Positions 26,214 to 43,453 of a DNA stretch of 43,453 bases are shown here, piece by piece; the stretch's first letter is position 1; each line of letters opens with the position of its first letter. Position numbers and translations under genes: made by a program. Source of the DNA: a virus; IMG/VR virus record IMGVR_UViG_3300009419_000001, positions 1 to 43,453 of that record; one strand, 5' to 3'. A model generated the notes under the pieces. The model was not told the origin of the DNA. It did no database searches and saw nothing but the letters and a program-made list of their open reading frames with translations.

Positions 26214-26291
26214 CTACTTAAAGCAATCATAAGCCAATCTTAACCCGACAAATAACAAACAAAACCAAGCACCAACAAACATTAGCTCCAT
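26214..26291 (-). CDS. Tiny membrane peptide (25 aa)
   Basis: A 26-codon frame with ATG 26291-26289 overlapping the stop of the upstream gene as TAATG, ending TAG 26216-26214. The product is one hydrophobic helix (LMFVGAWFCLLFVGLRLAY). Only the coupling argues that it is real. Confidence 0.35.
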   Translation of the reverse strand: MELMFVGAWFCLLFVGLRLAYDCFK

Positions 26292-28042: not shown

Positions 28043-28081
28043 TTTTGATACGCCTTGTTATACGCCTTAGAAAAAAAGATT

Positions 28082-28137
28082 GCCGCAACGTCTAAGGCGT
28101 AAGACTCACACTGGGTAATTAGTCCAATGCTTGCGGC
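28082..28137. other. Structured intergenic element
   Basis: GCCGCAA (28082-28088) and TTGCGGC (28131-28137) are perfect 7-bp arms enclosing 42 nt, with an inner GACT/AGTC stem (28103-28106 and 28121-28124). It fills the gap between the VRR-NUC gene and the paralogue gene. It lacks the constant CUAG and GAAAA segments of the three-way-junction motif. It may be a leader structure. Confidence 0.4.
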
Positions 28138-28163
28138 GAAACCATTTTAGCAAATTTAGCTTG

Positions 28164-28607
28164 TTAGTTTGGGACAATGTAGTAGTTTTCGATTGTTTTG
28201 ATAGCCTCATTTGCTGAATAACAAACGGCTGTTTTATAGCCTAATAACTCGACTTTGTTTAAAAACCAATGCTGATTTTCAGACAATCGGCCTTTGTCGC
28301 TTTTCATCTCAATAAATAAACCGTGATAACCACCCATTGGCACAGGCAAAAACAAATCAGGGATGCCGCTTAACATTCCTTGTTGTTTGGCTTTTATCGC
28401 TTGTAATGCCGATAATTTAACGCCGTTAAGCGAACAGTGAAGCAAGTCTAGATTCGGGTATTTACCCGTTTTATATGCCCACTTTGCCCACTCTACAACC
28501 TGTTGCTGATAGTTTGCCTCAGTGTGTTTTGTGGTTTTTTTAGTGCGTGATGGTTTAATGAGCGGCTGCTTTGATATGGCTTTATCAATCATTGTTTTTA
28601 GTGTCAT
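28164..28607 (-). CDS. VRR-NUC domain nuclease
   Basis: A 147-aa protein starting at ATG 28607, close behind the helicase stop. The VRR-NUC fold is indicated by the N-terminal TEANYQQQVVEWAKWAYKTG with its conserved Glu, the central GIPDLFLPVPMGGYHGLFIE leading to the catalytic MK of the D...ExK motif, and SENQHWFLNKVELLGYKTAV. Such phage nucleases are thought to resolve branched replication or recombination intermediates. It sits in the replication operon. Confidence 0.85.
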   Translation of the reverse strand: MTLKTMIDKAISKQPLIKPSRTKKTTKHTEANYQQQVVEWAKWAYKTGKYPNLDLLHCSLNGVKLSALQAIKAKQQGMLSGIPDLFLPVPMGGYHGLFIEMKSDKGRLSENQHWFLNKVELLGYKTAVCYSANEAIKTIENYYIVPN

Positions 28608-28608
28608 G

Positions 28609-29898: not shown

Positions 29899-29936
29899 AT
29901 TGTTGGCCTTCATTACTGGCAATCATTCAAGAATTG

Positions 29937-29989
29937 AAGCGGCTGTGAGTGAATGACTCTCACTTTTCGGGAGCTACCCTAGCCGCCTT
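29937..29989 (-). ncRNA. Three-way-junction RNA motif, copy B
   Basis: On the minus strand P1 is AAGGCGGC/GCCGCUU (5 Watson-Crick pairs plus a wobble). Then come UA, P2 GGG-UAGCU-CCC, GAAAA, P3 GUGAG-AGUCAUUCA-CUCAC, and A before the P1 return. It lies in the leader of the RecD-like helicase gene. P1 and P2 differ from copies A and C but keep pairing, while CUAG and CGAAAAGU are kept. Confidence 0.55.
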
Positions 29990-30098
29990 GTTATTATCGC
30001 GTTTTTAGTGTGTGTTTTATAATAACTTTTACTTATAAAGAATCATTTTTATATAAGTTTTATAGAATCGTCCCGCTTTTTATGTTTATGTCAATTAG

Positions 30099-30148
30099 TG
30101 GGACGGCTGCAAGCCTTGCGGCTGTAAGGCTAGAGTCGAATCGTCCCA
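30099..30148. repeat. 50-nt TGGGACG...CGTCCCA structured repeat, copy 1
   Basis: 7-bp inverted arms (30099-30105 and 30142-30148) enclose an inner hairpin that on the minus strand reads AGCC-GCAA-GGCT, with a GNRA loop. It lies in the 487-nt gap between the primase and helicase genes. Copy 2 starts 183 bp further on and shares the arms and the inner TTACAGCCGCAAGG. The gap also has an (AT)n run at about 30165-30181. It may belong to the replication origin or to an mRNA structure. Confidence 0.5.
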
Positions 30149-30281
30149 ACGTAATGTCCCGCGTTATATATATATATATATTACTTACAGAGAGAGAGCA
30201 TTGTATTAAGGTTTTTAGTGGATTTTGTTAAAAGACGACAAATTTTTCTAAATTTGTTTTTGTAGTGGGTCACGTTGACGT

Positions 30282-30332
30282 TGGGACGTTTCTCTTGCAG
30301 CCCTTGCGGCTGTAAGCGTGAGTCCCGTCCCA
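30282..30332. repeat. 51-nt TGGGACG...CGTCCCA structured repeat, copy 2
   Basis: The same arms (30282-30288 and 30326-30332) and the same inner TTACAGCCGCAAGG on the minus strand as copy 1, with different connecting bases. It lies about 80 nt downstream of the primase stop. The stretch between the copies and up to 30409 holds no convincing gene. Confidence 0.5.
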
Positions 30333-30409
30333 GTGCTGTCCCAATTTATAGAAACGGCACAGGGTGCAAAAAGATAGGGCTAGAATCATTCCAGCCCTTC
30401 AACATTAAC

Positions 30410-32710: not shown

Positions 32711-32879
32711 TTTCTAATTGTCCTTCTAAATAGTCAGAGAGTTTTTTAACAGTAGGATAAGCAACATTTTTACCTTTAGCCAATCGGAAAATTGTCGCCT
32801 CGCCTATTCCTGCTTTTTTAGCAACAACAGACAAATGTCTGTCTTCTAATAGTTTTTTAATTTGTTCAACAGTTAGCAT
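32697..32879 (-). CDS. XRE-family HTH repressor
   Basis: A 60-aa single-domain regulator. The helix-turn-helix is VVAKKAGIGEATIFRLAKGK (residues 18-37). ATG 32879 has AAGGTG 6 nt upstream, which decides the start. It overlaps the primase start by 14 nt and is first in that operon. It likely binds the GTGATTGAC palindrome halves at 32902-32943 that overlap both divergent promoters, and so switches between the two early units. Confidence 0.8.
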   Translation of the reverse strand: MLTVEQIKKLLEDRHLSVVAKKAGIGEATIFRLAKGKNVAYPTVKKLSDYLEGQLENAKQ

Positions 32880-32905
32880 TTTTTCACCTTTTAAACAGTT
32901 TGTGA

Positions 32906-32934
32906 TTGACACAATAAAACTTTATGACTAATAT
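32906..32934 (+). promoter_or_regulatory. Early rightward promoter
   Basis: TTGACA (32906-32911), a 17-bp spacer and TAATAT (32929-32934): a near-consensus sigma70 promoter for DUF669, the recombinase and the helicase. Confidence 0.8.
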
Positions 32935-32939
32935 GTCAA
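32911..32939 (-). promoter_or_regulatory. Early leftward promoter
   Basis: On the minus strand TTGACA (32939-32934), a 17-bp spacer and TATTGT (32916-32911) lead into the XRE repressor and primase. It shares almost every base with the rightward promoter, so both cannot be occupied at once. Confidence 0.7.
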
Positions 32940-32998
32940 TCACTGGAACACGAAACAATGAAGCCCAGTGAATCCAATTAACCAAGTGAGACAAAACC

Positions 32999-33478
32999 AT
33001 GAGCAACTTATCAAGCTACAATTTCAACGCCGAAGAAATCGAACCATCATCATCTTTTGACCCAATCCCTGCGGGTTGGTATAAGGCTATTATCAGCAAT
33101 AGCGAGATGAAGCCTACCCGTGACGGCTACGGTGAGTACCTTTCTTTAACTTTACAAATTATTGAAGGTCAATACGAAAACCGCCTTGTATTTGCCCGTC
33201 TTAACTTAAAAAACGCAAATGACAAAGCTGTTGATATTGCGCGTAAAGACCTTGCCGCTATCTGCCGCGCCGTAGGTGTTATGTCGCCAAAATCTAGCGA
33301 AGAACTCCACGATAAGCCCTTAATGATTAAAGTCAAGATTCGCCCTGCCAGTGGTGAGTATGACGCTAGTAATGATGTTGGCGGATATAAAGCCGATGAA
33401 GGCACAGACTTCACACCGCCACCACCGCCAAAGGTTGCTACCCCTGCCGCCCCTGCCAAAAAACCTTGGCAAAAATAA
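32999..33478 (+). CDS. DUF669 protein (putative ssDNA-binding)
   Basis: A 159-aa protein of the DUF669 family: FDPIPAGWYKAIISNSEMKP, then GEYLSLTLQIIEGQYENRLV and DIARKDLAAICRAVGVMSPK. The Pro/Ala-rich tail (TPPPPPKVATPAAPAKK) resembles the flexible acidic or proline tails of ssDNA-binding proteins. It precedes the Sak4-like recombinase, as in many phages, and is probably its ssDNA partner. It is the first gene after the rightward promoter. Confidence 0.82.
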   Translation: MSNLSSYNFNAEEIEPSSSFDPIPAGWYKAIISNSEMKPTRDGYGEYLSLTLQIIEGQYENRLVFARLNLKNANDKAVDIARKDLAAICRAVGVMSPKSSEELHDKPLMIKVKIRPASGEYDASNDVGGYKADEGTDFTPPPPPKVATPAAPAKKPWQK

Positions 33479-33487
33479 CAACACGTT

Positions 33488-33512
33488 AGCCGCCCACTGT
33501 GGCGGCTTTTTT
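33488..33512 (+). terminator. Intra-operon Rho-independent terminator
   Basis: AGCCGCC-CACTGT-GGCGGCT followed by T residues, between the DUF669 and recombinase genes. It probably lowers expression of the downstream genes relative to DUF669. Confidence 0.85.
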
Positions 33513-33531
33513 AATTTATGGAGTAGTGATT

Positions 33532-34272
33532 ATGTCATTTTTAAATAGCGTTAAACGCAATAAAGCAAAAACCGAACGTGTGATTGTTTATGGCGAATCA
33601 GGGTTAGGCAAGACTACATTCGCCACGTCTGCACCTAATCCAATCGTTATTCAAACCGAAGACGGCTTAGGTGAGATTGATGTACCATGCTTCCCCCTTG
33701 CCGAGTCTTATCTTGACGTGATGAAAGCATTAGACAGTTTGGCCAATGAAGAACACGATTTTAAAACCGTAGTGATTGACAGCCTAGACTGGCTAGAAAC
33801 GCTTATATGGAAACAGGTTTGCAGTGATAACAAAGTGCCAACCATTGAAAAAATCGGCTATGGTCGAGGCTATAACGAGGCGTTAGTGTTTTGGTCGTAT
33901 TTCTTTGACGAGCTAAACAAGTGCCGTGACAAAGGTATGCTTGTGATTATGACGGCTCATTCACAGGTCAACAAAGTAGAAGACCCCGAATATCTCACAT
34001 TCGACACGCACGACCTAAAACTACATAAAAAAGCTGCTGCTTTATGCCGTGAGTTCGCCGATGTTATTGGTTATGCAAGTCTGAAAAAGATTATCAAAAT
34101 CACCGAAGGCAAAGGCTTTAATGAAGACCGTAACCGCGCAATTAGCACAGGCGAGCGCATTTTAAACCTTAGCTCTAACCCTGCCTACGTTGCAAAGAAT
34201 CGCTACGATATGCCGCCAACAATGCCGTTATTGTGGTCGGAGTTTGCAAAGCATTTGCCAAGCCAAAAATAA
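33532..34272 (+). CDS. Sak4-like RecA-fold ATPase (ssDNA recombinase)
   Basis: A 246-aa ATPase. Walker A is GESGLGKTT (21-29). Walker B lies in TVVIDSLDWLE, with a later MLVIMTAHSQVNK strand, the pattern of phage Sak4/AAA_24 proteins. It promotes single-strand annealing with the SSB-like DUF669 protein encoded upstream. The start ATG 33532 has GGAG 8 nt upstream; the upstream in-frame extension runs through the terminator and is not used. Confidence 0.82.
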   Translation: MSFLNSVKRNKAKTERVIVYGESGLGKTTFATSAPNPIVIQTEDGLGEIDVPCFPLAESYLDVMKALDSLANEEHDFKTVVIDSLDWLETLIWKQVCSDNKVPTIEKIGYGRGYNEALVFWSYFFDELNKCRDKGMLVIMTAHSQVNKVEDPEYLTFDTHDLKLHKKAAALCREFADVIGYASLKKIIKITEGKGFNEDRNRAISTGERILNLSSNPAYVAKNRYDMPPTMPLLWSEFAKHLPSQK

Positions 34273-34285
34273 ACCACTCCCTAAA

Positions 34286-34307
34286 GCGTGAGCATAGCGT
34301 CTCACGC
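34286..34307 (+). other. Intercistronic RNA hairpin
   Basis: GCGTGAG (34286-34292) and CTCACGC (34301-34307) form a 7-bp stem with an 8-nt loop ahead of the helicase gene. No U-tract follows. It is comparable to the hairpin at 25826-25844. Confidence 0.45.
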
Positions 34308-34323
34308 AACCGAGAAGCCAAAC

Positions 34324-35901
34324 ATGATTACATTAAGAGATTATCAGCATGACGCGGTACAAAGTGCTTACGCCTACTGGCAAAATGGCACAAGCTGCAT
34401 TATTGAAGCACCATGCGGAGCAGGTAAAAGTTTAATCATTGGCAGAATATGCCATGACTCAATAACGCATGACGTGCGCGTTTTGGTTGTCACGCATCGC
34501 AAAAAACTATTAGAGCAAAACGAGGCGGAGTTAAAAAACCTGTTACCCGATGCTGATACGGGATTTTATAGTGCAGGGTTAAACCAAAAAACACAGGACG
34601 CGCAAATAGTTTTTGCAGGCATTCAAAGCATTGCCAACGCCACAATTCAGTACTATGAAATACTTATCATTGATGAATGTCACCTTGTTGCACCGAGCGA
34701 GGCAGGACAGTATCACCAACTCATTAACAACCTAAAAAACGTTAATCCTAATCTAAAAATTTTAGGCTTAACCGCCACCCCATACCGCTTAGATAGTGGT
34801 TACTTGACGCAATGGGACACGCCTATTTTTGAGCGTGTCGTTTATAAAATTGATGTTAAGTTACTTATTAAACGCGGCTATCTATGCCCTGTTGTGTCCA
34901 ACAGTGGCGGAGTTAAAGTTGATGTCAGCAAGGTCAAACACAAAGGCGGTGAGTTTTTAGATAGTGCGCTTGAATCGTTATACATGAGTAAAACGACAGA
35001 GATTGTCGCTGATATTGTAAAACATGGTGCTAACCGCAAAGCATGGTTAATTTTTTGCGTATCAATCGAACACGCCGAACAGGTTACAGCCGAGTTAATT
35101 AGACACGGTATCAATGCGGCTTGCTATCACTCGCAAAGCGATAATGAATATATTTTAGATGACTTCACACATGGCCATTTAAAATGCCTTGTTAATGTAA
35201 ACATACTCACGACAGGCTCTAATTTCCCCATTGCTGATATGTGTGTTTTGATTCGCGCTACCGAGTCAACTGCGCTTTATGTGCAGATTGTTGGACGTGT
35301 CATGCGGCTATATCCTAACAAAAAGAATGCCCTGTTATTAGACTATGGCGGTAATGTGTTAAGACACGGCTGCATTGATGATGTGACAGTCAAGGCCAAG
35401 GGCGAAGGCACAGGCGAAGCACCCTCTAAAGAATGCCCGTCATGCGATACAATCCTACACGCTGCCGCCCGTGAGTGTCCCGAATGTGGTTTTGTTTTTG
35501 AGCGTGAGCCTGATAAAAAACTAGACTTAAACGCTTATGATGGTGCGGTATTATCAGACCAACGTAAGGTACAGCGTGTAGATGTTGACCGCGTGAGTTT
35601 TAAGATACACAAGAAAAAAGGCAAGCCTGACAGTATCAAAGTGACTTATCATTGTGGTTTAGCTGAGTATTACGAATGGCTAACTCCGCTTCATAGCGAG
35701 ATTGGGTTAAAAAAGACTAAAGTGTTTTTTAATAAATTAAGCCGCGTAAATTGGAATCGCGCAGAATTAACAGGCGAAAGAATAATGAGTTATTTTTTTA
35801 GTGATTATTCTGCTTCACATTATCAGTATAACATTGAAGCTATCGACATTCTACCGTCAAAATATACCGAAGTTAAAAAACGGTACTGGAGCAAAGTATG
35901 A
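34324..35901 (+). CDS. SF2 DEAD/DEAH-box helicase with zinc ribbon
   Basis: A 525-aa SF2 helicase. Motifs in order: Q-type RDYQHDAVQSA, Walker A PCGAGKS (30-36), motif Ia VVTHRKKLLEQ, DEAH-box variant IIDECH, motif III LTATPYR, and motif VI QIVGRVMR. A CPSCD...CPECGF zinc ribbon follows, then an extra C-terminal domain of about 130 residues. It resembles the phage Res/UvsW-like helicases of recombination. It overlaps the next gene by 4 nt (ATGA). Confidence 0.88.
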   Translation: MITLRDYQHDAVQSAYAYWQNGTSCIIEAPCGAGKSLIIGRICHDSITHDVRVLVVTHRKKLLEQNEAELKNLLPDADTGFYSAGLNQKTQDAQIVFAGIQSIANATIQYYEILIIDECHLVAPSEAGQYHQLINNLKNVNPNLKILGLTATPYRLDSGYLTQWDTPIFERVVYKIDVKLLIKRGYLCPVVSNSGGVKVDVSKVKHKGGEFLDSALESLYMSKTTEIVADIVKHGANRKAWLIFCVSIEHAEQVTAELIRHGINAACYHSQSDNEYILDDFTHGHLKCLVNVNILTTGSNFPIADMCVLIRATESTALYVQIVGRVMRLYPNKKNALLLDYGGNVLRHGCIDDVTVKAKGEGTGEAPSKECPSCDTILHAAARECPECGFVFEREPDKKLDLNAYDGAVLSDQRKVQRVDVDRVSFKIHKKKGKPDSIKVTYHCGLAEYYEWLTPLHSEIGLKKTKVFFNKLSRVNWNRAELTGERIMSYFFSDYSASHYQYNIEAIDILPSKYTEVKKRYWSKV

Positions 35902-36089
35902 ACCATAAAGCAGAATATGACGCTTTAAAAATAAAGCTGATTGAGATTAAAGAAGCATTGAAACATCGGTGCGTAGAGTGTTCAAACTTTAACGCAAAAA
36001 AGAATGAATGTTTTAAGCATGGCTTTGTCCCTGCTGATTTTGTTTATTCAAGAAATGATTGCGAATACTGGGATTATCTGCCGTTTTGA
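35898..36089 (+). CDS. Small Cys-rich protein, probably zinc-binding
   Basis: A 63-aa product. After an N-terminal helix it has CVECSNFNAKKNECFKHG and a further Cys in NDCEYWDYLPF. The CxxC...C...C spacing suggests one zinc site. It is similar to small phage proteins encoded with helicases, but no function is known. It is translationally coupled to the helicase. Confidence 0.65.
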   Translation: MNHKAEYDALKIKLIEIKEALKHRCVECSNFNAKKNECFKHGFVPADFVYSRNDCEYWDYLPF

Positions 36090-36097
36090 TGTAATAA

Positions 36098-36119
36098 AAA
36101 GCCCCTCTTATGGGGCTTT
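36098..36119. terminator. Bidirectional Rho-independent terminator
   Basis: AAAGCCCC-TCTTAT-GGGGCTTT, with A residues before and T residues after. It ends the plus-strand helicase unit. Confidence 0.85.
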
Positions 36120-36176
36120 ACTTTTTGCCATAACTCGGCAATAATCACCTCGCTATGTGTGTTTTGATTTACAAAG

Positions 36177-36202
36177 AACCCTGCCTAAAAACAGGGTTTT
36201 TT
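36177..36202 (+). terminator. Second Rho-independent terminator
   Basis: AACCCTG and CAGGGTT arms around an A-rich loop, followed by TTTTTT. It is tandem with the previous terminator between convergent units. The 36120-36176 stretch between them holds nothing recognisable. Confidence 0.8.
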
Positions 36203-36210
36203 GTTGCCTG

Positions 36211-36282
36211 TTATTTAAGTCCACGAGCAAAGTAAAATGCAAAAGCAAAACTAAAAATAATGATGCTGATTATGGTTGTCAT
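36211..36282 (-). CDS. Tiny membrane peptide (23 aa)
   Basis: A 24-codon frame starting 1 nt after the methyltransferase stop (TAACATG). The product is one hydrophobic helix (IISIIIFSFAFAFYFA) with a basic end. It is too short for any family call; tight coupling is the only support. Confidence 0.4.
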   Translation of the reverse strand: MTTIISIIIFSFAFAFYFARGLK

Positions 36283-36283
36283 G

Positions 36284-36910
36284 TTATAACTCCATTGCAA
36301 TCTGTTTAGTGGCCATATCAAATCTAGCTTTGGCAGCCTCAAAATAGTCTTTGTCCAACTCGCAGCCCACAAAATCAACACCGAAATAGTGGGCGGCTAT
36401 GACACTTGAGCCACTGCCTAAATGCGTGTCTAAAATGCGCTGTCCTTTTTTGGCATAGTTTGTTAAAAGCCATTCGTATAATGCAACTGGCTTTTGAGTC
36501 GGGTGTATTTTATTTGTATATATTTCCACTCCTGTTTGCGCCCTTATTTTAATAATAGAGATTGTGTTTTTTAATGAATTAAAAGCTAGCTCGGCTTTTG
36601 AAAAATCAACAGCACCAGTTATGTCTTTATCCCACACAATCCAGCCATTGTGTGGGGGTAACCATTCAAAATTATTAGCACCCCATACAATTTGATTTTT
36701 TGATTTCTTTTTAAGTAACTCCCAGTATTCTTTGTTTGGCGGAGCGTTGTCCCACGATTTTTTGGCGTGTTTCAATATTTGGCCTTTTCTTCTGCCTTGG
36801 TTCATGTTTATTTTAATCCCATAAGGCGGGTCAACAATCGCAAGGTCAAAATACTTATCAGGCACAGTTGCCATATACTCCATACAATCACAGTTAAGCA
36901 GTTTAATCAT
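36284..36910 (-). CDS. DNA adenine/cytosine-N4 methyltransferase
   Basis: A 208-aa amino-methyltransferase with catalytic DPPY at residues 27-30, HPTQKP at 136-141 and the AdoMet-binding motif DTHLGSGSS at 161-169. The motif order (catalytic first, AdoMet site last) is that of beta-class enzymes. No restriction endonuclease is adjacent, so it is an orphan enzyme, probably protecting phage DNA from host restriction. The recognition sequence cannot be read from the sequence. It overlaps the Cro-like gene by 4 nt. Confidence 0.88.
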   Translation of the reverse strand: MIKLLNCDCMEYMATVPDKYFDLAIVDPPYGIKINMNQGRRKGQILKHAKKSWDNAPPNKEYWELLKKKSKNQIVWGANNFEWLPPHNGWIVWDKDITGAVDFSKAELAFNSLKNTISIIKIRAQTGVEIYTNKIHPTQKPVALYEWLLTNYAKKGQRILDTHLGSGSSVIAAHYFGVDFVGCELDKDYFEAAKARFDMATKQIAMEL

Positions 36911-37092
36911 TTCAAATCCACCACTTTAATACTAAGACCGTTTTGGTTAGCCATTTCGACAAAACGCACCAACTTCCAAGCAGGCACTTTGTTTGCTTTA
37001 AACCAACGATAAACAGCTTGATAGTCCTCATTCATTAAGTCGGCTACCACGCGGCAACCGCCCAATTGTTCAATTACTTCGCTTGTTGTCAT
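36907..37092 (-). CDS. Cro-like DNA-binding regulator
   Basis: A 61-aa protein with the pattern of small Cro/CII-type regulators: EVIEQLGGCRVVADLMNEDY, then QAVYRWFKANKVPAWKLVRF forming the helix-turn-helix. ATG 37092 has GGAG 10 nt upstream. It likely binds the TTGTCTAT direct repeats in the divergent gap 37093-37234 and controls its own operon (with the methyltransferase) and the plus-strand genes. Confidence 0.75.
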   Translation of the reverse strand: MTTSEVIEQLGGCRVVADLMNEDYQAVYRWFKANKVPAWKLVRFVEMANQNGLSIKVVDLK

Positions 37093-37120
37093 GTTTTCAT
37101 ACTCCAGTTAAGACAAGGCT

Positions 37121-37149
37121 ACTTTATCGCCTTTTATATTACTTGTCTA
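37121..37149 (-). promoter_or_regulatory. Promoter for the Cro-like gene
   Basis: On the minus strand TAGACA (37149-37144), a 17-bp spacer and TAAAGT (37126-37121). The -35 overlaps the first TTGTCTAT repeat. Confidence 0.5.
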
Positions 37150-37172
37150 TCATTTATTTATCATTTGTCTAT
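37143..37172. promoter_or_regulatory. Operator-like direct repeats TTGTCTAT
   Basis: TTGTCTAT occurs at 37143-37150 and 37165-37172, spaced 22 bp (two helical turns), each near an ATCATTT. This places the sites on one face of the helix, over the -35 regions of both divergent promoters. Confidence 0.5.
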
Positions 37173-37199
37173 TGTTTTTAGTTTTGAGTGTGATAAGAT
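37172..37199 (+). promoter_or_regulatory. Candidate promoter for the 37.2-38.0 kb genes
   Basis: TTGTTT (37172-37177), a 16-bp spacer and TAAGAT (37194-37199) precede the first gene by about 35 nt. A moderate match. Confidence 0.4.
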
Positions 37200-37234
37200 A
37201 GGCTCATCAAAACACAACATAGCGAGATAAAAAA

Positions 37235-37408
37235 ATGAGCTACAAAACTTATAAAGTGACTTTATCTTATGGTCGTAAAAGCCCTGCTTTTGAATCATCA
37301 CACCAAGCCGCCGATGCTGTAACGGCTGTACGTTTGTCTAAGCACTTGGCTATCAATTGCGGTTTTAATTGCGATATTAAAAAAGTCACTGTAAAAGAGG
37401 TGGCGTAA
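37235..37408 (+). CDS. Small protein, unknown function
   Basis: A 57-aa product starting at ATG 37235 after the recurring AGCGAGATAA leader; its stop directly abuts the next ATG (37409). It alternates strands and helices (SYKTYKVTLSYGRKSPAFES, then QAADAVTAVRLSKHLAI), ending KKVTVKEVA. It looks like a compact alpha/beta early phage protein. No family is recognised. Confidence 0.6.
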   Translation: MSYKTYKVTLSYGRKSPAFESSHQAADAVTAVRLSKHLAINCGFNCDIKKVTVKEVA

Positions 37409-37648
37409 ATGCACCAATTCAACTTCATGCACGGTTGGACTGACGCACAAGCAGAAGCCACACGCAAGGTTTTTGCGTATCGCATTCGCAAGATGCGCGA
37501 AAACTATCCCGAACTGTTGACCTTAGCAGAACGTGAAGCGGAAAATGAAAAAAAACGCGAACAGGCAATAAAAGATTTTGAGAAGTGGCAAGCAAGCCAC
37601 AAAACAACCAATGTTGATGCGAGTCAACACATTAACTATAACGAGTGA
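37409..37648 (+). CDS. Small charged helical protein, unknown function
   Basis: A 79-aa hydrophilic protein, mostly one long charged helix (TLAEREAENEKKREQAIKDF, about residues 35-55). The start abuts the previous stop. The last 20 residues are Asn/Thr-rich. No motif is recognised. It lies in the early four-gene unit under the Cro-controlled region. Confidence 0.6.
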   Translation: MHQFNFMHGWTDAQAEATRKVFAYRIRKMRENYPELLTLAEREAENEKKREQAIKDFEKWQASHKTTNVDASQHINYNE

Positions 37649-37655
37649 GAGCGAG

Positions 37656-37823
37656 ATGGAACTGTTTATTTTGTCGGGTATTTTGGTTATTTCGTTTGGT
37701 GTCGCTATTGAGCGCACCAAGTTTAAGGCGATGTTGTTGGCGCGTGATGCAAAAATAATTGAATTGTTTGCTGAAAATAATGCAGCAGAAAACGCTGCAC
37801 AGGAGTTAATAAATGAGCGATAA
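37656..37823 (+). CDS. Small membrane-anchored protein
   Basis: A 55-aa protein with an N-terminal membrane helix (LFILSGILVISFGVAIE) followed by a basic, then acidic, helical tail. ATG 37656 is preceded by GAGAGCGAG. It overlaps the start of the following lipoprotein gene by 11 nt. The arrangement of a membrane protein overlapping a lipoprotein gene resembles Rz/Rz1 spanin pairs, but the tail is shorter than usual. Confidence 0.55.
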   Translation: MELFILSGILVISFGVAIERTKFKAMLLARDAKIIELFAENNAAENAAQELINER

Positions 37824-37953
37824 CCAAAAGGCGTTTTGCCTGTTTGCTGTGTTTATGATTTTTATGGGCTGCGCAGGTCAAGGCGATTATGAGTACGCCA
37901 AAAGCCAAGAAGCAAAACGCATCAAAACAGATGATGTAATGATGTGTAAATAA
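37813..37953 (+). CDS. Small lipoprotein (possible o-spanin or exclusion protein)
   Basis: A 46-codon gene overlapping the previous one. The N-terminus is a signal (KAFCLFAVFMIFMGC) with a lipobox-like FMGC at residues 17-20, so the mature lipoprotein would be about 27 residues of charged sequence. Small overlapped lipoproteins in phages serve as outer-membrane spanins or superinfection exclusion factors. Here it is away from the endolysin, so neither role is established. Confidence 0.55.
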   Translation: MSDNQKAFCLFAVFMIFMGCAGQGDYEYAKSQEAKRIKTDDVMMCK

Positions 37954-37966
37954 AAAATCACGACTC

Positions 37967-38000
37967 AAAAACACGTTATGTCTAGCTAATGCGTGTTTTT
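37967..38000. terminator. Bidirectional terminator at the left edge of the cassette array
   Basis: AAAAACACG (37967-37975) and CGTGTTTTT (37992-38000) form a 9-bp stem with flanking A and T runs. It separates the early unit from the cassette array, which begins 17 bp later, so array expression needs its own promoter or readthrough. Confidence 0.85.
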
Positions 38001-38016
38001 GTTTGCAGTACCAGTG

Positions 38017-38133
38017 CTAGAACCTGATGACTGTAGCCGCGTGATGCTGTGGCAGATACTTATTGCCGAGTGACTGACGTAAACAGTCAAACATAATAAA
38101 CTAGGTTAGTGTCGGCTTGAATGAGAGTTAGAT
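38017..38133 (+). repeat. attC 1 (degenerate left arm, intact right arm)
   Basis: The right arm GTGTCGGCTTGAATGAGAG ends in GTTAGAT (38127-38133) and is almost identical to the right arm of attC 14. The left side (CTAGAAC at 38017-38023, then TGTAGCCGC) only resembles a normal left arm. It marks the left edge of the array. Confidence 0.6.
38070..38097 (+). promoter_or_regulatory. Weak candidate array promoter in the attC 1 loop
   Basis: GTGACT (38070-38075), a 16-bp spacer and CATAAT (38092-38097), with the inverted repeat TGACTG/CAGTCA (38071-38076 and 38084-38089) between them. It lies between the terminator and the first cassette gene. The match is modest. Confidence 0.3.
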
Positions 38134-38163
38134 GTGTTTTTATTTTGGCGATGGAGTTTAGCA

Positions 38164-38310
38164 ATGAGCAGCATAATTAAACATGAGCATAGTTTTATTG
38201 ATAAATGGAACTGGAAAATGGATTACTGTTTAAAAAACAGATGGCCACCAAGCAATTCTTATTTTTGGGCAAAAGCAGAAGATGCTTATTTTAAACAAAT
38301 AAACATCTAA
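38164..38310 (+). CDS. Cassette 1 product (48 aa), unknown
   Basis: Starts ATG 38164 with GGAG about 8 nt upstream; the stop TAA lies within the ATCTAAC core of attC 2. The product is rich in Trp, Tyr and Phe (WNWKMDYCLKNRWPPSNSYF), soluble and without a known motif. High aromatic content in so small a protein suggests a binding or inhibitory peptide, but that is a guess. Confidence 0.6.
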   Translation: MSSIIKHEHSFIDKWNWKMDYCLKNRWPPSNSYFWAKAEDAYFKQINI

Positions 38311-38426
38311 CTAAGTGCGTAAGGCGCAAATACCCGCGCCTATTTATGCAGAAAACTGTAATCACAAACGTCAAAAGATAAGCCATTGTTGGCTGGGTAT
38401 TTGTCGCACTTGACGTAGAGTTAGAA
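38305..38426 (+). repeat. attC 2
   Basis: ATCTAAC (38305-38311) to GTTAGAA (38420-38426), 122 bp. AAGTGCG and CAAATACCC on the left pair with GGGTATTTG and CGCACTT on the right. The last base deviates from GTTRRRY. Confidence 0.85.
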
Positions 38427-38464
38427 GCGTGGCAGGTATTGCGATAAAGTGCAGGAGATGAAAG

Positions 38465-38662
38465 ATGAGCTTAGACAACAAAAGAATTACAATTGAGGGG
38501 AACGTTTTAAGAGCATTTGAAATTGTTGGTCTTTTTTCGTTGTGCTGGATAATTTATTTGCTTTGGGTTTACGCCCCGAATTGGACTTGGTTTATAACAG
38601 TACCAGCTATTGTTTTAATTTATTTTGGCGCGTTTGCAAGTAGAGACAGAAGCAAGCTCTAA
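38465..38662 (+). CDS. Cassette 2 product, small membrane protein
   Basis: A 65-aa protein with a short charged N-terminus and two membrane helices (AFEIVGLFSLCWIIYLLWVY and FITVPAIVLIYFGAFA) joined by a tight APNWTW turn, ending in a basic tail. The start has AGGAG upstream (38453-38457). Small two-helix membrane proteins are common among cassette products, and some act at the envelope. The function is unknown. Confidence 0.7.
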   Translation: MSLDNKRITIEGNVLRAFEIVGLFSLCWIIYLLWVYAPNWTWFITVPAIVLIYFGAFASRDRSKL

Positions 38663-38747
38663 CTACTGAGCTTAACACGCAAGCACTAACATTTTATGAC
38701 TTACGCTGACGGCTGAGTGCTTGTCGTTGTTGAAGCGTGAGTTAGAT
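38657..38747 (+). repeat. attC 3
   Basis: CTCTAAC (38657-38663) to GTTAGAT (38741-38747), 91 bp. GCTTAACACGCAAGCACT pairs with AGTGCTTGTCGTTGTTGAAGC. It differs from attC 11 at only a few loop positions. Confidence 0.9.
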
Positions 38748-38759
38748 GAGGATATAGCA

Positions 38760-39053
38760 ATGAGTGAAGAAAAAAAAGAAATTAGAGAAAAAATACTAAC
38801 TGTATTAGATTGGTGGAAACATAAACACTATTATGCTTTTACGGGTTGGGATAGTGTTAGTTCGCGTATGACTTATAACGAATTAGCGGCTTTAGATTTG
38901 TCTATAGCAACTTATGAGAACATTACAGAAATTTTATACAATCAATCAGATATAGAAAACTGGAGAATATATGCTCATAATGTAAAAATACCTAAAGTAT
39001 ATGAAGTTGATTTTTATACTTTATGTAACACTATTCCGCGTATGTTTCATTAA
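38760..39053 (+). CDS. Cassette 3 product (97 aa), unknown
   Basis: ATG 38760 follows GAGGA placed just after the attC 3 core. The protein is soluble, starting with a highly charged helix (SEEKKEIREKILTVLDWWKH), then aromatic-rich segments. The frame is also open upstream through attC 3 from a TTG (SLLKRELDEDIA), so a fusion to the attC-encoded peptide is possible. No motif is recognised. Confidence 0.65.
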   Translation: MSEEKKEIREKILTVLDWWKHKHYYAFTGWDSVSSRMTYNELAALDLSIATYENITEILYNQSDIENWRIYAHNVKIPKVYEVDFYTLCNTIPRMFH

Positions 39054-39055
39054 GC

Positions 39056-39179
39056 ATCTAACTACTGAGCTTAACGTGCGCCACCCCACACGTTTATAAG
39101 CCTGTGCTAATGAATCATTTTATTTTTTAATGCTTAGATAGTGGCTGGGGTGGTGTCACTGTTAAAGCGTGAGTTAGAT
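39056..39179 (+). repeat. attC 4
   Basis: ATCTAAC (39056-39062) to GTTAGAT (39173-39179), 124 bp. CTTAACGTGCGCCACCCCA pairs with TGGGGTGGTGTCACTGTTAA, leaving several extrahelical bases. Confidence 0.9.
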
Positions 39180-39191
39180 TGGGGGATTGCG

Positions 39192-39509
39192 ATGAAATTT
39201 ATAGTGCATGAGAGTATTTCTTCTATTCTTGAAGGAGAACAAGAAGAAGAATTGACTTACATTGACAGGCGAACTGTTGCAACATTAGATGAGGCTAAAA
39301 AATACCATTGGTTTGATAGCTGGCATAAAAAAGGAAAAAACCATAGAGAAGAAAACGGCATGATTGCCTGTGATATGATTCAAAAATCAACAGAAAGAGT
39401 TGTTGAAATATCAAGCCTTGACGAGTTATTACAGCTACAAGAAAGGCTTGGGCGATTAGAAATTGTAAACAGCTACTATTTGGAAATTCCCAAACAGATA
39501 GAAATCTAA
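39192..39509 (+). CDS. Cassette 4 product (105 aa), unknown
   Basis: ATG 39192 with GGGGG about 6 nt upstream. A soluble alpha/beta protein, opening KFIVHESISSILEGEQEEEL, with a C-terminal helix SLDELLQLQERLGRLEIVNS that ends in a beta strand. The frame is open back through attC 4 as well. The layout resembles small hypothetical cassette proteins; no motif is known. Confidence 0.65.
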   Translation: MKFIVHESISSILEGEQEEELTYIDRRTVATLDEAKKYHWFDSWHKKGKNHREENGMIACDMIQKSTERVVEISSLDELLQLQERLGRLEIVNSYYLEIPKQIEI

Positions 39510-39599
39510 CTACCCGCATAACGCGCAAGTACCCACAAAGATTATGGTTTTGCATGATAAGTGGCTGGGTACTTGTCGCTGTTGATGCAAGAGTTAGGT
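39504..39599 (+). repeat. attC 5
   Basis: ATCTAAC (39504-39510) to GTTAGGT (39593-39599), 96 bp. GCAAGTACCC pairs with GGGTACTTG, and CGCATAAC with the GTTGATGC side. Confidence 0.9.
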
Positions 39600-39628
39600 T
39601 GTATATTTTTAATAAGAGGATACTGACA

Positions 39629-39994
39629 ATGAACCAACCAATGCAACCATTGGCTTATGACGAAAAAGGTGTTTTACGTTTTAAACCAAACGCTATTGTG
39701 CAATATATTTTAGACAATGGCGGCGTTGACTTAAATAAAATAGCTTGCTTGACCTTTAGCAAAGAAGACCGTCAACAATTTGCACAGCTAATCGGCTATA
39801 GCCTAAGCGGCTATAGCTCTTTGAGTTATGTTGATAATGAAAGTTACGAAACTGCTGAAAAGATATTTAATGAAGGCTTGAGCGAAGATAAGGCAAGAAT
39901 TGCGTATTTAGAGGGTGAGTTAAAAGCCTTGCGCGATGCTTTGCAAGTGCCTATGGCTCGACTATTTGAAAAGCACCCTGACGACTTAAATTAA
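39629..39994 (+). CDS. Cassette 5 product (121 aa), recurrent cassette-type hypothetical protein
   Basis: ATG 39629 with AAGAGGA upstream. The sequence MQPLAYDEKGVLRFKPNAIV, then FSKEDRQQFAQLIGYSLSGY and a C-terminal coiled-coil helix (DKARIAYLEGELKALRDALQ) resembles a hypothetical protein family I associate with mobile elements and integron cassettes. The function is not known. It is soluble; oligomerisation through the last helix is likely. Confidence 0.7.
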   Translation: MNQPMQPLAYDEKGVLRFKPNAIVQYILDNGGVDLNKIACLTFSKEDRQQFAQLIGYSLSGYSSLSYVDNESYETAEKIFNEGLSEDKARIAYLEGELKALRDALQVPMARLFEKHPDDLN

Positions 39995-39995
39995 A

Positions 39996-40119
39996 ACCTA
40001 ACTACCTAGCTTAACGGGAAACGCCCCGACTGTTGTAAAAAGTGGCAATGTTGCCAAAAACTTAATAAATAACTCTGCAATCGGCTGGGGCGTTTTCCCT
40101 GTTGAAGCGCGAGTTAGAT
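39996..40119 (+). repeat. attC 6
   Basis: ACCTAAC (39996-40002) to GTTAGAT (40113-40119), 124 bp. GCTTAACGGGAAACGCCCC pairs with GGGGCGTTTTCCCTGTTGAA. The loop carries the palindrome TGGCAATGTTGCCA, also present in attC 7. Confidence 0.9.
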
Positions 40120-40130
40120 GAGGAATTACG

Positions 40131-40532
40131 ATGAACTTTAACGTTAACACAAAATCAAACCGCATTGATTGGGAATTTGAATACACCGCATCTGTTTTGG
40201 CTGCTGCTGCGACAGAAAAGAAAGCGTACCGCCAAGGCCGCGCTGATTGGTGGGAAGAAAAGCAAAAAGAAGTGATTGCAGAAATTAAAGAGTCTGGACT
40301 TGAGTTTAATGAAAGTCTCGCAGTTTCTTATGCAAGCACGGCAGGCCGCGCACCGCAACTTGCAGTAAAAGCCGATTTGCAAAACAAAATTAAGGAGTGT
40401 CACGAAAAAATCCATGAGCATCTGTCGGCTGTATATGAATATGATGGTTGGGTGCAAGTATTAAGCGCAAACCCTGACTCACGCATGAAGTTGAAACATG
40501 GCGATTGGTTGTTTTTCTTCGGCACTAATTGA
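40131..40532 (+). CDS. Cassette 6 product (133 aa), recurrent cassette-type hypothetical protein
   Basis: ATG 40131 after AGGAA. Features: an opening IDWEFEYTASVLAAAATEKK, an RADWWEEKQKEVIAEIKESG helix, then LQNKIKECHEKIHEHLSAVY and the C-terminal YDGWVQVLSANPDSRMKLKH ending in DWLFFFG. I recognise this as a widespread hypothetical protein type in mobile DNA; the function is unknown. It is soluble, helical and probably dimeric. Confidence 0.7.
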   Translation: MNFNVNTKSNRIDWEFEYTASVLAAAATEKKAYRQGRADWWEEKQKEVIAEIKESGLEFNESLAVSYASTAGRAPQLAVKADLQNKIKECHEKIHEHLSAVYEYDGWVQVLSANPDSRMKLKHGDWLFFFGTN

Positions 40533-40533
40533 A

Positions 40534-40658
40534 ATCTAACTACCGTGCAATAAGGGGACGCACCCTCTTTGACTGTAAAAATGGCAATGTTGCCAACAAA
40601 CTAAACAATGACTCAATAATCGGCTGGGGTGCGTTCCCACTTGATTGCTGAGTTAGAT
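40534..40658 (+). repeat. attC 7
   Basis: ATCTAAC (40534-40540) to GTTAGAT (40652-40658), 125 bp. GTGCAATAAGGGGACGCACCC pairs with GGGTGCGTTCCCACTTGATT. The loop shares TGGCAATGTTGCCA and flanking bases with attC 6. Confidence 0.9.
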
Positions 40659-40670
40659 TGAGGCTTTAAG

Positions 40671-40916
40671 ATGAAAAACGTAGAAAGTTTACCCGATGGA
40701 TTTTATTTAATCACTTCACCCAGAGACCCATATAAGTGTTTGGTTTACTTATATGATAACTATGATTTTAACGGTGTGCGTCATATTGCATTTATGCCGC
40801 AAGATGGGGCTGACTTAATGCCTGTTACAGATTTAACAGAAGACAGCGAACTTATACCAGTCTGTATTTCTCGCACAGACATTGCAATTACGACCAAGCA
40901 ACTGCAAGAAATCTAA
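40671..40916 (+). CDS. Cassette 7 product (81 aa), unknown
   Basis: ATG 40671 with GAGG 7 nt upstream; the stop TAA is within the attC 8 core. A small beta-rich soluble protein (SLPDGFYLITSPRDPYKCLV, then GVRHIAFMPQDGADLMPVTD) ending in an acidic helix. No motif is known. The pattern of short strands suggests a compact barrel. Confidence 0.65.
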   Translation: MKNVESLPDGFYLITSPRDPYKCLVYLYDNYDFNGVRHIAFMPQDGADLMPVTDLTEDSELIPVCISRTDIAITTKQLQEI

Positions 40917-41021
40917 CTATAGCATTAACAGGTAACGCCCACGCTATAAGCCGTGAGATGTTACCACAACTTAAACAAAAACTCAGCATGGGGCGTTATC
41001 CTGTTGAATGCTGAGTTAGGT
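40911..41021 (+). repeat. attC 8
   Basis: ATCTAAC (40911-40917) to GTTAGGT (41015-41021), 111 bp. GCATTAACAGGTAACGCCC pairs with GGGCGTTATCCTGTTGAATGC. Confidence 0.9.
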
Positions 41022-41049
41022 TTGTGATGAAAATTTAGAGGATTTGATT

Positions 41050-41238
41050 ATGGCAACACTTGAGCAAATACAACTAGCAGAAAGAAACTCTATTGAAATA
41101 CTAAGCCAAAGATTACAGCCGATAAAAGACTTAAAAGAGCTTATTCATGTAATAGAGCAATTCAAACAGATTCATAAAATTGACCCATTGCCACACCTAA
41201 AAAATGCAATGGCAAATTATGTAAAGACAAAAACCTAA
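41050..41238 (+). CDS. Cassette 8 product (62 aa), unknown
   Basis: ATG 41050 with AGAGGA upstream. A small, wholly helical soluble protein: ATLEQIQLAERNSIEILSQR, then KDLKELIHVIEQFKQIHKID. Amphipathic helices suggest a bundle or a partner-binding peptide. No motif is known. Confidence 0.65.
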   Translation: MATLEQIQLAERNSIEILSQRLQPIKDLKELIHVIEQFKQIHKIDPLPHLKNAMANYVKTKT

Positions 41239-41325
41239 CTGACAAAGTTAAGCAGTAAAAACCACACCGACATTAAAACCATTGATGATAGGCTAGGTTT
41301 TTATCTGCTTGAACGGGAGTTAGGC
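41233..41325 (+). repeat. attC 9
   Basis: ACCTAAC (41233-41239) to GTTAGGC (41319-41325), 93 bp. AAGTTAAGCAGTAAAAACC pairs with GGTTTTTATCTGCTTGAAC. It belongs to the same subfamily as attC 10 and 12. Confidence 0.9.
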
Positions 41326-41356
41326 ATTTTTAACGATGAATTATAGGTTGAAGTTT

Positions 41357-41584
41357 ATGATACTACCTAGTGAAATTGAACGCATATTGGATGAGACGTT
41401 AGAAAAGATTAACAACGTTTTTCCGACACACAGCAAAAGTAGCTGCAATGATGAGAATTTATATAATTGCGGTGCTATATTTTTGCTACCTCGTTGTGAA
41501 AGATGTGAGGCATTAGAGAGACTGCGATTGTGGCGTGTTGAACATGAGTACAATAAGTTAAAAGCATCACTAGCAAAAGCCTAA
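41357..41584 (+). CDS. Cassette 9 product (75 aa), unknown
   Basis: The start ATG 41357 is preferred. An in-frame ATG at 41336 belongs to a leader that also occurs in cassettes 10 and 12, where it opens only short dead-end frames. The protein is helical, with a C-x4-C pair in LLPRCERCEALERLRLWRVE region (Cys-x2-Cys) and an earlier Cys, so a metal site is possible. No known family. Confidence 0.6.
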   Translation: MILPSEIERILDETLEKINNVFPTHSKSSCNDENLYNCGAIFLLPRCERCEALERLRLWRVEHEYNKLKASLAKA

Positions 41585-41667
41585 CTGACTAAGTTAAGCA
41601 GTAAAGCCCCACAAAAGCAGACTTGCATAGTTAGCTGAGGCTTTATCTGCTTGAACAGGAGTTAGAT
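41579..41667 (+). repeat. attC 10
   Basis: GCCTAAC (41579-41585) to GTTAGAT (41661-41667), 89 bp. AAGTTAAGCAGTAAAGCCC pairs with GGCTTTATCTGCTTGAAC. Confidence 0.9.
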
Positions 41668-41728
41668 ACGCTAACTTTTAACGATGAATTATAGGTTGCC
41701 ACACCTTTTTTAGTGGCGGAGATGCAAA

Positions 41729-41914
41729 ATGTTTGACGAAGTTTTAGGTAAATTAAGAGAGGCGCGTGCATTGTTGTTAATTGAGCGTGATAGCGGCAAG
41801 TCATCGCGTGAATTAGCGGTTGCACTTACTGAAATTGATACAGCTATTTTATGGCGACAAGAAGATTTGCGACTAAAAACGCCGCCAGTCAATTTAGCAG
41901 GTTTTGCGGAGTAG
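41729..41914 (+). CDS. Cassette 10 product (61 aa), unknown
   Basis: ATG 41729 with GGAG (41717-41720) 8 nt upstream. A soluble helical protein (MFDEVLGKLREARALLLIER, then SSRELAVALTEIDTAILWRQ) with a Pro-containing tail. It is preceded by the shared leader in which a 9-codon dead-end frame precedes the true start. The function is unknown. Confidence 0.65.
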   Translation: MFDEVLGKLREARALLLIERDSGKSSRELAVALTEIDTAILWRQEDLRLKTPPVNLAGFAE

Positions 41915-41915
41915 T

Positions 41916-42006
41916 ATCTAACTACTGAGCTTAACACGCAAGCACTAACAATTTAATACTTACGCTGACGGCTGAGTGCTTGTCGTTGTTGAAGCGTGAG
42001 TTAGGT
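41916..42006 (+). repeat. attC 11
   Basis: ATCTAAC (41916-41922) to GTTAGGT (42000-42006), 91 bp. Near-identical to attC 3 along its whole length. Confidence 0.9.
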
Positions 42007-42021
42007 TGCGAGTACAAGGCC

Positions 42022-42402
42022 ATGCCATGCTATACAATGAAAAGCAAACCCACAAGTGTTGAAGATTACAGATTATGGCAAAAAGAGCTTGGATTTTTAG
42101 GTAGTTACGAAAAATACAAGGAGGCAAAGAGCTGGACTGGTGATAGTGTTTTCTTTTTATGTGGTGATTTTGGTGAACATTGTGCTGATTGTGGCGGCGT
42201 AAGTGAGTTTTTGTGTGATTATCCTGTAGGCGATGGCAAAACTTGTGACAGGAATATGTGCGAAGAACACGCAAAAGAAGTAAGTCCTGATATACATTAT
42301 TGCGAGACGCATTACAAAATGTGGCGTGATTTTGTAGAAAAAGGCGGTGTGGATGAGCAACTTAAAAACGTAATTGCTTTTAAGAGTGAAAAGCAAACCT
42401 AA
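42022..42402 (+). CDS. Cassette 11 product, Cys/His-rich probable zinc protein (126 aa)
   Basis: ATG 42022 with AAGG just upstream (an alternative ATG is at 42037). After a helical N-terminus the protein has CGDFGEHCADCGGVSEFLCD, then GKTCDRNMCEEHAKE and HYCETHYKMW. The CxxC, CxxxxC-type and CxxH spacing implies two zinc sites of the treble-clef or RING/zinc-ribbon kind. This is typical of DNA-, RNA- or protein-binding modules. The last 30 residues are helical. The frame is also open back into attC 11. The role is unknown. Confidence 0.7.
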   Translation: MPCYTMKSKPTSVEDYRLWQKELGFLGSYEKYKEAKSWTGDSVFFLCGDFGEHCADCGGVSEFLCDYPVGDGKTCDRNMCEEHAKEVSPDIHYCETHYKMWRDFVEKGGVDEQLKNVIAFKSEKQT

Positions 42403-42490
42403 CTGACTAAGTTAAGCCGCAAACACCTTAGCGGCATTTGTTTTACACCGTAACTGGCTGGGTGTTTGTCGGTTTGAACGGGAGTTAGGC
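42397..42490 (+). repeat. attC 12
   Basis: ACCTAAC (42397-42403) to GTTAGGC (42484-42490), 94 bp. AAGTTAAGCCGCAAACACC pairs with GGTGTTTGTCGGTTTGAAC. Confidence 0.9.
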
Positions 42491-42526
42491 ATTTTTAACG
42501 ATGAATTTTTGACGTAGAGGTGAATG

Positions 42527-42775
42527 ATGAAAATTGACTGGATTGATGCCGAAGAACTGGCAGCTAAACTTTGTGAACTTGGCGACGAATACGATAGTGA
42601 TGCCGTAGAACAGGCATTATTTGACAAGTACGAAATTAGTTTTGATAAGTTCCACAACCTAATTTGTGACTTAGCCCCGATGTGTGAAGTTGGACAAAGC
42701 CCTTTGAGCGGTAAAAAGTCACGCGGTTTTGCAGATATTGAAAATGCGTGCTTTATAGCAAGAGTGGATGCCTAA
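42527..42775 (+). CDS. Cassette 12 product (82 aa), unknown
   Basis: The start ATG 42527 is placed 6 nt after AGAGG; ATG 42524 is equally in frame. An acidic helical protein (DWIDAEELAAKLCELGDEYD, then EQALFDKYEISFDKFHNLIC) with a short C-terminal GKKSRGFADIENACF segment. It resembles small acidic phage proteins of unknown role. Acidic surface mimicry is one possibility and is untested. Confidence 0.65.
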   Translation: MKIDWIDAEELAAKLCELGDEYDSDAVEQALFDKYEISFDKFHNLICDLAPMCEVGQSPLSGKKSRGFADIENACFIARVDA

Positions 42776-42888
42776 CTATGTGCATTAAGCCGTGCAGCCC
42801 CGAAAACTTTTAAAATACAGGTGATACCATGACAGAAAACACTACACAAGCGGCTGAGGCTGCATCGGACTTGAATGCTGAGTTAGAT
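42770..42888 (+). repeat. attC 13 (overlaps the next gene's start)
   Basis: GCCTAAC (42770-42776) to GTTAGAT (42882-42888), 119 bp. GCATTAAGCCGTGCAGCC pairs with GGCTGCATCGGACTTGAATGC. The ribosome site and ATG of the next gene (42829) lie in its loop, and the whole right arm is coding. Confidence 0.85.
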
Positions 42889-43128
42889 TCGCTTTTAGAA
42901 ATGGCAGATGACTATTTAAGCGCGCAAAAAGAAAGTCGCCTTGCGCCTTGTAATCCTGATTTTTTGATTAAGCACTTGGCAAGTGTGGCCAAACAATTCA
43001 GAGATGCAAACATTTCTTATCAAAAAGCAATAACAAATATCGCCTGTGCTGCTGATAGACTTTCAGAAGAGAGTTGTTATGACGTACAAGAAGATATTGT
43101 TGCAGCAATAAAAAAGTTAGAAGACTAA
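42829..43128 (+). CDS. Cassette 13 product (99 aa), start inside attC
   Basis: ATG 42829 is preceded by CAGGTG within the loop of attC 13. The first 20 residues (TENTTQAAEAASDLNAELDS) are therefore encoded by the attC right arm. The core helical protein would begin around Met25 (ADDYLSAQKESRLAPCNPDF), then helices FLIKHLASVAKQFRDANISY and a tail ending AAIKKLED. Recombination at GTTAGAT would cut the gene from its start codon. It is a soluble protein of unknown function. Confidence 0.7.
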   Translation: MTENTTQAAEAASDLNAELDSLLEMADDYLSAQKESRLAPCNPDFLIKHLASVAKQFRDANISYQKAITNIACAADRLSEESCYDVQEDIVAAIKKLED

Positions 43129-43132
43129 AAGA

Positions 43133-43217
43133 ATCTAACTGATTAAATTAAGCCGCACCACCCCTGACTTATTACAAAACTAGGCTAGGGTAGTGTCGGC
43201 TTGAATGAGAGTTAGAA
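43133..43217 (+). repeat. attC 14
   Basis: ATCTAAC (43133-43139) to GTTAGAA (43211-43217), 85 bp. AATTAAGCCGCACCACCC pairs with GGGTAGTGTCGGCTTG. The right arm matches that of attC 1 closely. Confidence 0.9.
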
Positions 43218-43243
43218 AGCGTGGTGAAAATTGAGAGGATTAT

Positions 43244-43444
43244 ATGAGCGATAAACTGTGTGGTTGCCGAACGTGTATAAGATTGCGTGATGCTGACAAA
43301 GAATACATTTTTGACAAGGAAGAACACCAACGCATGATTTTATGCCCAACTTGCGGCTGTAAACGATGCCCGAAGGCAAACCACCACGACAACCAATGCA
43401 CAGGCAGCAATGAAAGAGGGCAAGTTGGCAGTGCGTACCCGTAG
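43244..43444 (+). CDS. Cassette 14 product, Cys-rich zinc-finger-like protein (66 aa)
   Basis: ATG 43244 with GAGAGG 6 nt upstream. The protein has CGCRTC near the N-terminus, a CPTCGCKRCPKANHHDNQC segment and a Gly/Ser tail. The repeated CxC and CxxC with nearby His suggests one or two zinc sites. It is the last gene of the array; its 3' end is duplicated at window start because the contig wraps. It ends at TAG, two bases before a truncated attC. The function is unknown. Confidence 0.7.
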   Translation: MSDKLCGCRTCIRLRDADKEYIFDKEEHQRMILCPTCGCKRCPKANHHDNQCTGSNERGQVGSAYP

Positions 43445-43453
43445 CGTCTAACT
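43349..43453. repeat. Direct terminal repeat, right copy
   Basis: Identical to 1-105. Closing the circle here joins the end of the cassette array to the convergent tail-fibre region. Confidence 0.95.

Follow-up and report, generated by a model that had tools for sequence, protein, structure and literature searches.

A candidate integrase-less integron with an attI-like site and reversed cassettes in a tailed phage

The virus record IMGVR_UViG_3300009419_000001, analysed here over its whole length of 43,453 nt (the window), carries an integron-type array of small genes and attC recombination sites. Bases 1–105 are exactly identical to bases 43349–43453, and this terminal direct repeat, a circularisation overlap, indicates a 43,348-bp circular map as the simplest reading of the record. 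Owing to the 105-bp repeat, the array runs on from 38.0 kb across the contig ends to base 116, and comprises a half attC, 14 open reading frames (ORFs) with 13 full attC sites, and an attI-like site at 99–116. The backbone genes are those of a contractile-tailed phage, including TerL, portal, tail sheath, primase, helicases, and methyltransferase, and the TerL shares 65% identity with its counterpart in Psychrobacter phage vB_PmaS_Y8A.

attC sites, related phages, and hosts

The 13 full attC sites extend from 38305–38427 through 43133–43217. In their alignment, the R boxes are invariant and compensatory double changes occur at 10 of the 18 consensus pairs. A covariance model built from these sites (R1) detects attC in the arrays of Agitococcus lubricus (Moraxellaceae), a genome encoding the integron integrase IntI. 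Because a test of the window with R1 would be circular, a second model (R2) was built from 17 attC of the A. lubricus chromosomal integron only. R2 recovers all 13 sites in a scan of the 43-kb window (43–90 bits, E 1e-8 to 1e-20) and nothing elsewhere in it, save weak opposite-strand echoes at two of the 13. Specifically, the plus-strand sites are s2 (38305–38427, 89.7 bits), s3 (38657–38747, 53.2 bits), s4 (39056–39179, 68.6 bits), s5 (39504–39599, 76.7 bits), s6 (39996–40119, 88.8 bits), s7 (40534–40658, 86.4 bits), s8 (40911–41021, 69.5 bits), s9 (41233–41325, 45.1 bits), s10 (41579–41667, 43.2 bits), s11 (41916–42006, 52.7 bits), s12 (42397–42490, 45.4 bits), s13 (42770–42888, 74.6 bits), and s14 (43133–43217, 47.6 bits). 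In the R2 structure, single unpaired bases are confined to one arm, as extrahelical bases would be, and the features of attC (R boxes, paired arms, extrahelical bases, and a variable loop) are found at 13/13 sites with this host-trained model. The original prediction of 14 same-strand genes and 13 attC sites with paired arms, set in a tailed phage and resembling the host-integron type, is borne out by these matches. A 19-base half-site pattern gives six matches in the window and none in 100 shuffles.

The distal end of the array is a degenerate half attC (38018–38133, plus strand), in which the right arm and right box are kept and the left arm is lost; it shows no R-box stem when folded and is matched by neither R1 nor R2. 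The palindrome TGGCAACATTGCCA is present in the loops of both s6 (40043–40056) and s7 (40582–40595).

Searches of the record for the integron integrase (TIGR02249) and for Phage_integrase (PF00589) were negative, in agreement with the absence of an integrase originally described. The window lacks the intI gene of a complete integron and has the arrangement of a cluster of attC sites lacking integron integrases (CALIN), namely at least two attC with no intI nearby. The absence of an integrase gene is also the sole basis on which the phage may be called lytic. The Rfam int-alpA RNA family is matched, at a score slightly over the gathering threshold, at 29924–29989 on the minus strand between helicase and primase genes, with no integrase gene near.

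A half-site pattern scan of 2.9 million viral contigs returned 10 stretches, spread over nine contigs besides the window. Both R1 and R2 detect attC in 9/9 of these contigs, from one each in G004 and G008 up to at least 14 in G006. Their backbones are mostly unrelated to one another and to the window, and no IntI or other tyrosine recombinase was found in any of the 10 phage records. Seven further contigs from a relaxed boundary-element search (L066–L072) were rejected, as they have no attC and their number is about that expected by chance. In G004, a 44-kb phage contig, a single ORF of 5,231 aa spans 23229–38924.

Among bacterial contigs, from genomes or metagenome-assembled genomes (MAGs), the half-site pattern matches those of Agitococcus, Moraxellaceae UBA2032, and a few others. 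Of 58 A. lubricus relatives, four (with 47, 11, 8, and 3 hits) account for nearly all occurrences of the same attC type. Full-length IntI is encoded by A. lubricus, an Agitococcus MAG, and UBA2032. One array of the Agitococcus MAG belongs to a prophage with portal, TerL, and TerS genes. Bacterial genes adjoin this prophage, among them leuS, which was identified by sequence. Because of these pattern matches and of an array-bearing prophage in a genome with IntI, the evidence points to Agitococcus-like Moraxellaceae as probable hosts of these phages, the host of the window phage itself being judged from its attC type.

The attI-like end and cassette polarity

The array ends, straight after c14, its last cassette ORF, and across the circular junction, in an attI-like site on the minus strand (99–116) that consists of an R box (TCTAAC), a spacer, and an L box (TTAGAC); its first 7 nt are repeated at 43447–43453. 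Three host-type genomes, those of A. lubricus, the Agitococcus MAG, and UBA2032, also have R and L boxes upstream of intI, in a layout like that of class 1 attI1. An attI matrix was trained on four sites, the attI of these three host-type genomes and attI1 of R46. The top match of this matrix in the window is 99–116, exactly at the array end. The array end is likewise the best match of the matrix in both G007 and the prophage, and the second best in G003. Furthermore, attI-like sites are positioned at the last stop codon in G001 (both ends), G004 (left), G005, G006, and L025, while the right-hand end of G004 bears the same conserved element, found by alignment and overlooked by the matrix. The two arrays of G001 and of G004 point outward from the contig ends, where early genes lie, and each finishes in the conserved element at the late-module border. 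L025, a 36.9-kb contig of a Methylopumilus MAG, has a phage-polarity array with attI-like sites at positions 3162 and 5805, and could be a phage contig assigned to the wrong bin.

In direct alignments of attI, uncorrected for the number of comparisons, the UBA2032 attI scores 59 with the array end of G006 and 61 with that of L105, against a 99.9% background of 37. The Agitococcus MAG attI scores 41 with the array end of its own prophage (p ~0.002), and 36–41 over that end, G007, L025, and G005; the A. lubricus attI scores 40 with G003 and 37 with G009. Most arrays with a visible far end thus appear to finish in a site resembling the attI of three host-type genomes, and the window, by similarity, has the attI at the array end of a complete integron. 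Because its array ends in this way, it would be more than a plain CALIN: the label given originally holds for attC without intI, but perhaps not for the end of the array, where an attI-like site unreported at the time is present.

The flank of the attI-like site (117–170) is conserved in G001, G003, and G004. It contains a perfect 11-bp inverted repeat, TGACGTATAAC/GTTATACGTCA, at 124–159, which among all viral contigs searched recurs exactly only in those three and is absent from seven bacterial genomes tested. A terminator was considered and rejected, as a terminator scan found none there and, in G001 and G004, the repeat also occurs where the genes on both sides are co-directional.

In the class 1 cassettes of R46, the extra unpaired bases sit in the arm adjoining the ORF 3′ end. 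The A. lubricus arrays follow this usual polarity in 22 clear ORFs and oppose it in three. In the phage arrays, by contrast, clear ORFs oppose the usual attC polarity by 26:1, i.e., they read toward attI (Fisher p = 2e-10 against A. lubricus, with cassettes counted as independent). In the window, polarity is reversed in 9/9 clear cases and in 13/13 intervals by longest ORF, unlike the usual polarity that is typical of, if not strictly defining for, integron arrays. Two of the three A. lubricus exceptions are homologous to phage-type cassettes, namely window c12 and one of the prophage, which suggests cassette transfer from phage to host arrays. The choice of strand by IntI is governed mainly by extrahelical bases, and the canonical attC arrangement has been linked to whether an acquired gene is expressed (Bouvier et al. 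2009, PMC2727003).

Cassette exchange and cargo

G001 and G007 come from different metagenomes and their backbones have one distant match only, yet they have 592 bp in common at 97% identity, corresponding to one cassette with its attC. The identity starts at the upstream right box and stops at the right box of the cassette itself. A unit of one attC and two ORFs, delimited by left boxes, is common to G001 and G002; what follows on its right is the attI-like site in G001 and an attC in G002. In host arrays, left-box boundaries are found in the five closest attC pairs. One attC is alike at 98–100% in G002 and G003, with ORFs at 71–75%; s2 of the window is 97% identical to an attC of G005, and s3 and s11, whose neighbouring ORFs are unrelated, match each other at 97%. 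In all, several attC with unrelated ORFs on either side are 92–97% alike. As judged from these comparisons, cassette exchange is real, left and right boxes both act as breakpoints, and IntI may be the enzyme. In A. lubricus, arrays L059, L082, L083, and L084 contain repeated near-identical cassettes of ~214 bp without a clear ORF.

The 14 cassette ORFs of the window lie on one strand between 38164 and 43444, encode 48–133 aa, and mostly carry a ribosome-binding site. As in integron arrays, each attC generally comes with a single small ORF in head-to-tail order, and the stop codon of many ORFs overlaps the left R-like box. The plus-strand ORFs are c1 (38164–38310, 48 aa), c2 (38465–38662, 65 aa, membrane-like), c3 (38760–39053, 97 aa), c4 (39192–39509, 105 aa), c5 (39629–39994, 121 aa), c6 (40131–40532, 133 aa), c7 (40671–40916, 81 aa), c8 (41050–41238, 62 aa), c9 (41336–41584, 82 aa), c10 (41729–41914, 61 aa), c11 (42022–42402, 126 aa, PHROG 13747 of unknown function), c12 (42524–42775, 83 aa, PHROG 10957), c13 (42901–43128, 75 aa, with a longer frame starting within s13 at 42829), and c14 (43244–43444, 66 aa, Cys-rich). 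Most of the proteins are of unknown type. Relatives in other phages exist for c5 (52% identity over 80 aa to a reading frame of Vibrio phage Seahorse), c12, and c14 (55% identity to Pseudomonas phage hypothetical proteins). A match to chromosomal integron cassettes was obtained for c12, which shares 76% identity with the ORF of a chromosomal cassette in A. lubricus. For c10, a weak match to the Acb2/Tad1 hairpin domain (E 0.0019) is under the curated cut-off and has no counterpart in the phage collection; assignment as an Acb2 homologue (anti-CBASS/anti-Thoeris sponge) was rejected. The cargo fits accessory phage genes, possibly for counter-defence.

Alternative explanations and implications

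We favour, at a probability of roughly 70%, the reading that the array is an integrase-less integron (attI-like site, 14 cassettes, and 13 attC of a functional type) in a tailed phage, worked by host IntI. This reading draws on what the records display directly, namely the sites, the missing integrase, the similarity to attI, the polarity, and the shared cassettes. Beyond these, we infer that host IntI acts on the sites, that transcription proceeds as an operon from the left, and that the phage benefits. Specifically, upon infection, host IntI would bind folded single-stranded attC hairpins of the phage, and would either attach incoming cassettes at the attI of the phage or swap cassettes at attC. 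Because attC is inverted relative to the ORFs, cassettes inserted at attI would read toward attI, and they could be transcribed as a single operon from the phage early side. Small accessory genes would in this way be pooled among phages and with host arrays.

Several observations weigh against an integron worked by host IntI. The search found no attI-like end in G002, and the window site taken by itself is moderate against background (9/300 windows; p ~0.007, uncorrected), so that the attI claim leans on the set of array ends and not on this site alone. Relatives traced through the helicase have no array beside it. The G001/G007 unit ends at right boxes, where canonical cleavage on inverted sites predicts left boxes, and several attC with unrelated ORFs on either side are almost the same in different phages; homologous recombination at the attC arms may account for some of the exchange. 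If such recombination, by phage or host, did all the shuffling with no IntI, the attC would be mere recombination patches or operon spacers, which would account for attC 97–100% identical beside different or diverged ORFs and for the right boxes that bound the G001/G007 block. We regard this as improbable, because breakpoints fall at box ends and not within arms, extrahelical bases and pairing are maintained, and the attI-like ends are given no reason.

A little less improbable, though still unlikely, is a plain CALIN, i.e., a host array fragment captured once and kept as passive cargo, with an accidental R-box remnant as its end site. The absent integrase, the host-type attC, and the degenerate left end agree with it, and phage CALINs are already known, 17 having been reported from a set of 10,705 genomes of phages (Qi et al. 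2023, PMC9892861). It is opposed by an ORF polarity reversed relative to host arrays, by the many independent arrays that end in attI-like sites, and by recent exchanges and cassettes that differ from phage to phage. Simple capture of a host array piece, as originally proposed, does not fit because of the reversed polarity and the phage relatives of c5, c12, and c14. A chimera of bacterial array and phage, a concern for any metagenomic contig and one raised with the original prediction, is very improbable: the terminal repeat is present, the prophage array sits inside a bacterial contig, the right junction (last ORF, attI-like site, and the same late genes) recurs in G001 and G003, and in G004 the attI-like site adjoins the same C93 peptidase gene. 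Chimeric assembly is excluded at this right junction. The concern stands for the left junction (~38.0 kb), which was found in no second genome; the left-flank ORF (37409–37648) has no relatives among viral contigs.

Known systems share parts of this arrangement. The sedentary chromosomal integron of A. lubricus (G010 contig C6) has the same attC type, similar attI R and L boxes, and the c12 ORF, whereas it differs in having intI and the usual polarity. The class 1 integron of plasmid R46 has the same attI R/L layout, and its attC likewise combine R boxes with extrahelical bases, but its ORF polarity is opposite to that of the phage arrays; R46 was limited to these polarity and attI comparisons because R1 misses its short class 1 attC at E up to 1. 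The CALINs described for virulent phages (TJE1 of Tetrasphaera, P12002L, and PH101; PMC9892861) likewise consist of attC and cassettes with no integrase, and IntI1 recombined 5/6 phage attC tested in that study. Unlike the window and its group, they are described there without an attI, inverted ORF polarity, a recurrent family, or cassette exchange between phages. In TJE1, a simple box search for polarity gave a single unlikely candidate, inside a coding gene. The view that a phage array is very unusual is tempered by these published CALINs, although the arrays detailed there are small (TJE1: 3 attC, 4 ORFs) and its supplements may hold larger ones. What appears to be new is the attI platform without integrase, the reversed polarity, and the repeated occurrence within a single host group; our literature searches returned no report of this phage group.

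Integrons have been studied as bacterial gene-collecting tools, for resistance genes among others. The phages described here seem to retain the docking and recombination sites while borrowing the enzyme. Chances are about even that a group of phages, mostly unrelated but sharing one bacterial host lineage, keep their own attI sites and a phage-specific pool of reversed-polarity cassettes, with host IntI serving in trans for phage-phage and phage-host gene exchange. Since their orientation is the reverse of the canonical one (Bouvier et al. 2009, PMC2727003), the phage cassettes would provide a natural setting in which to test the choice of attC strand. If the proposed reading is true, integron recombination would be a route of modular gene exchange among phages, and would explain the entry of phage genes into bacterial cassette arrays.

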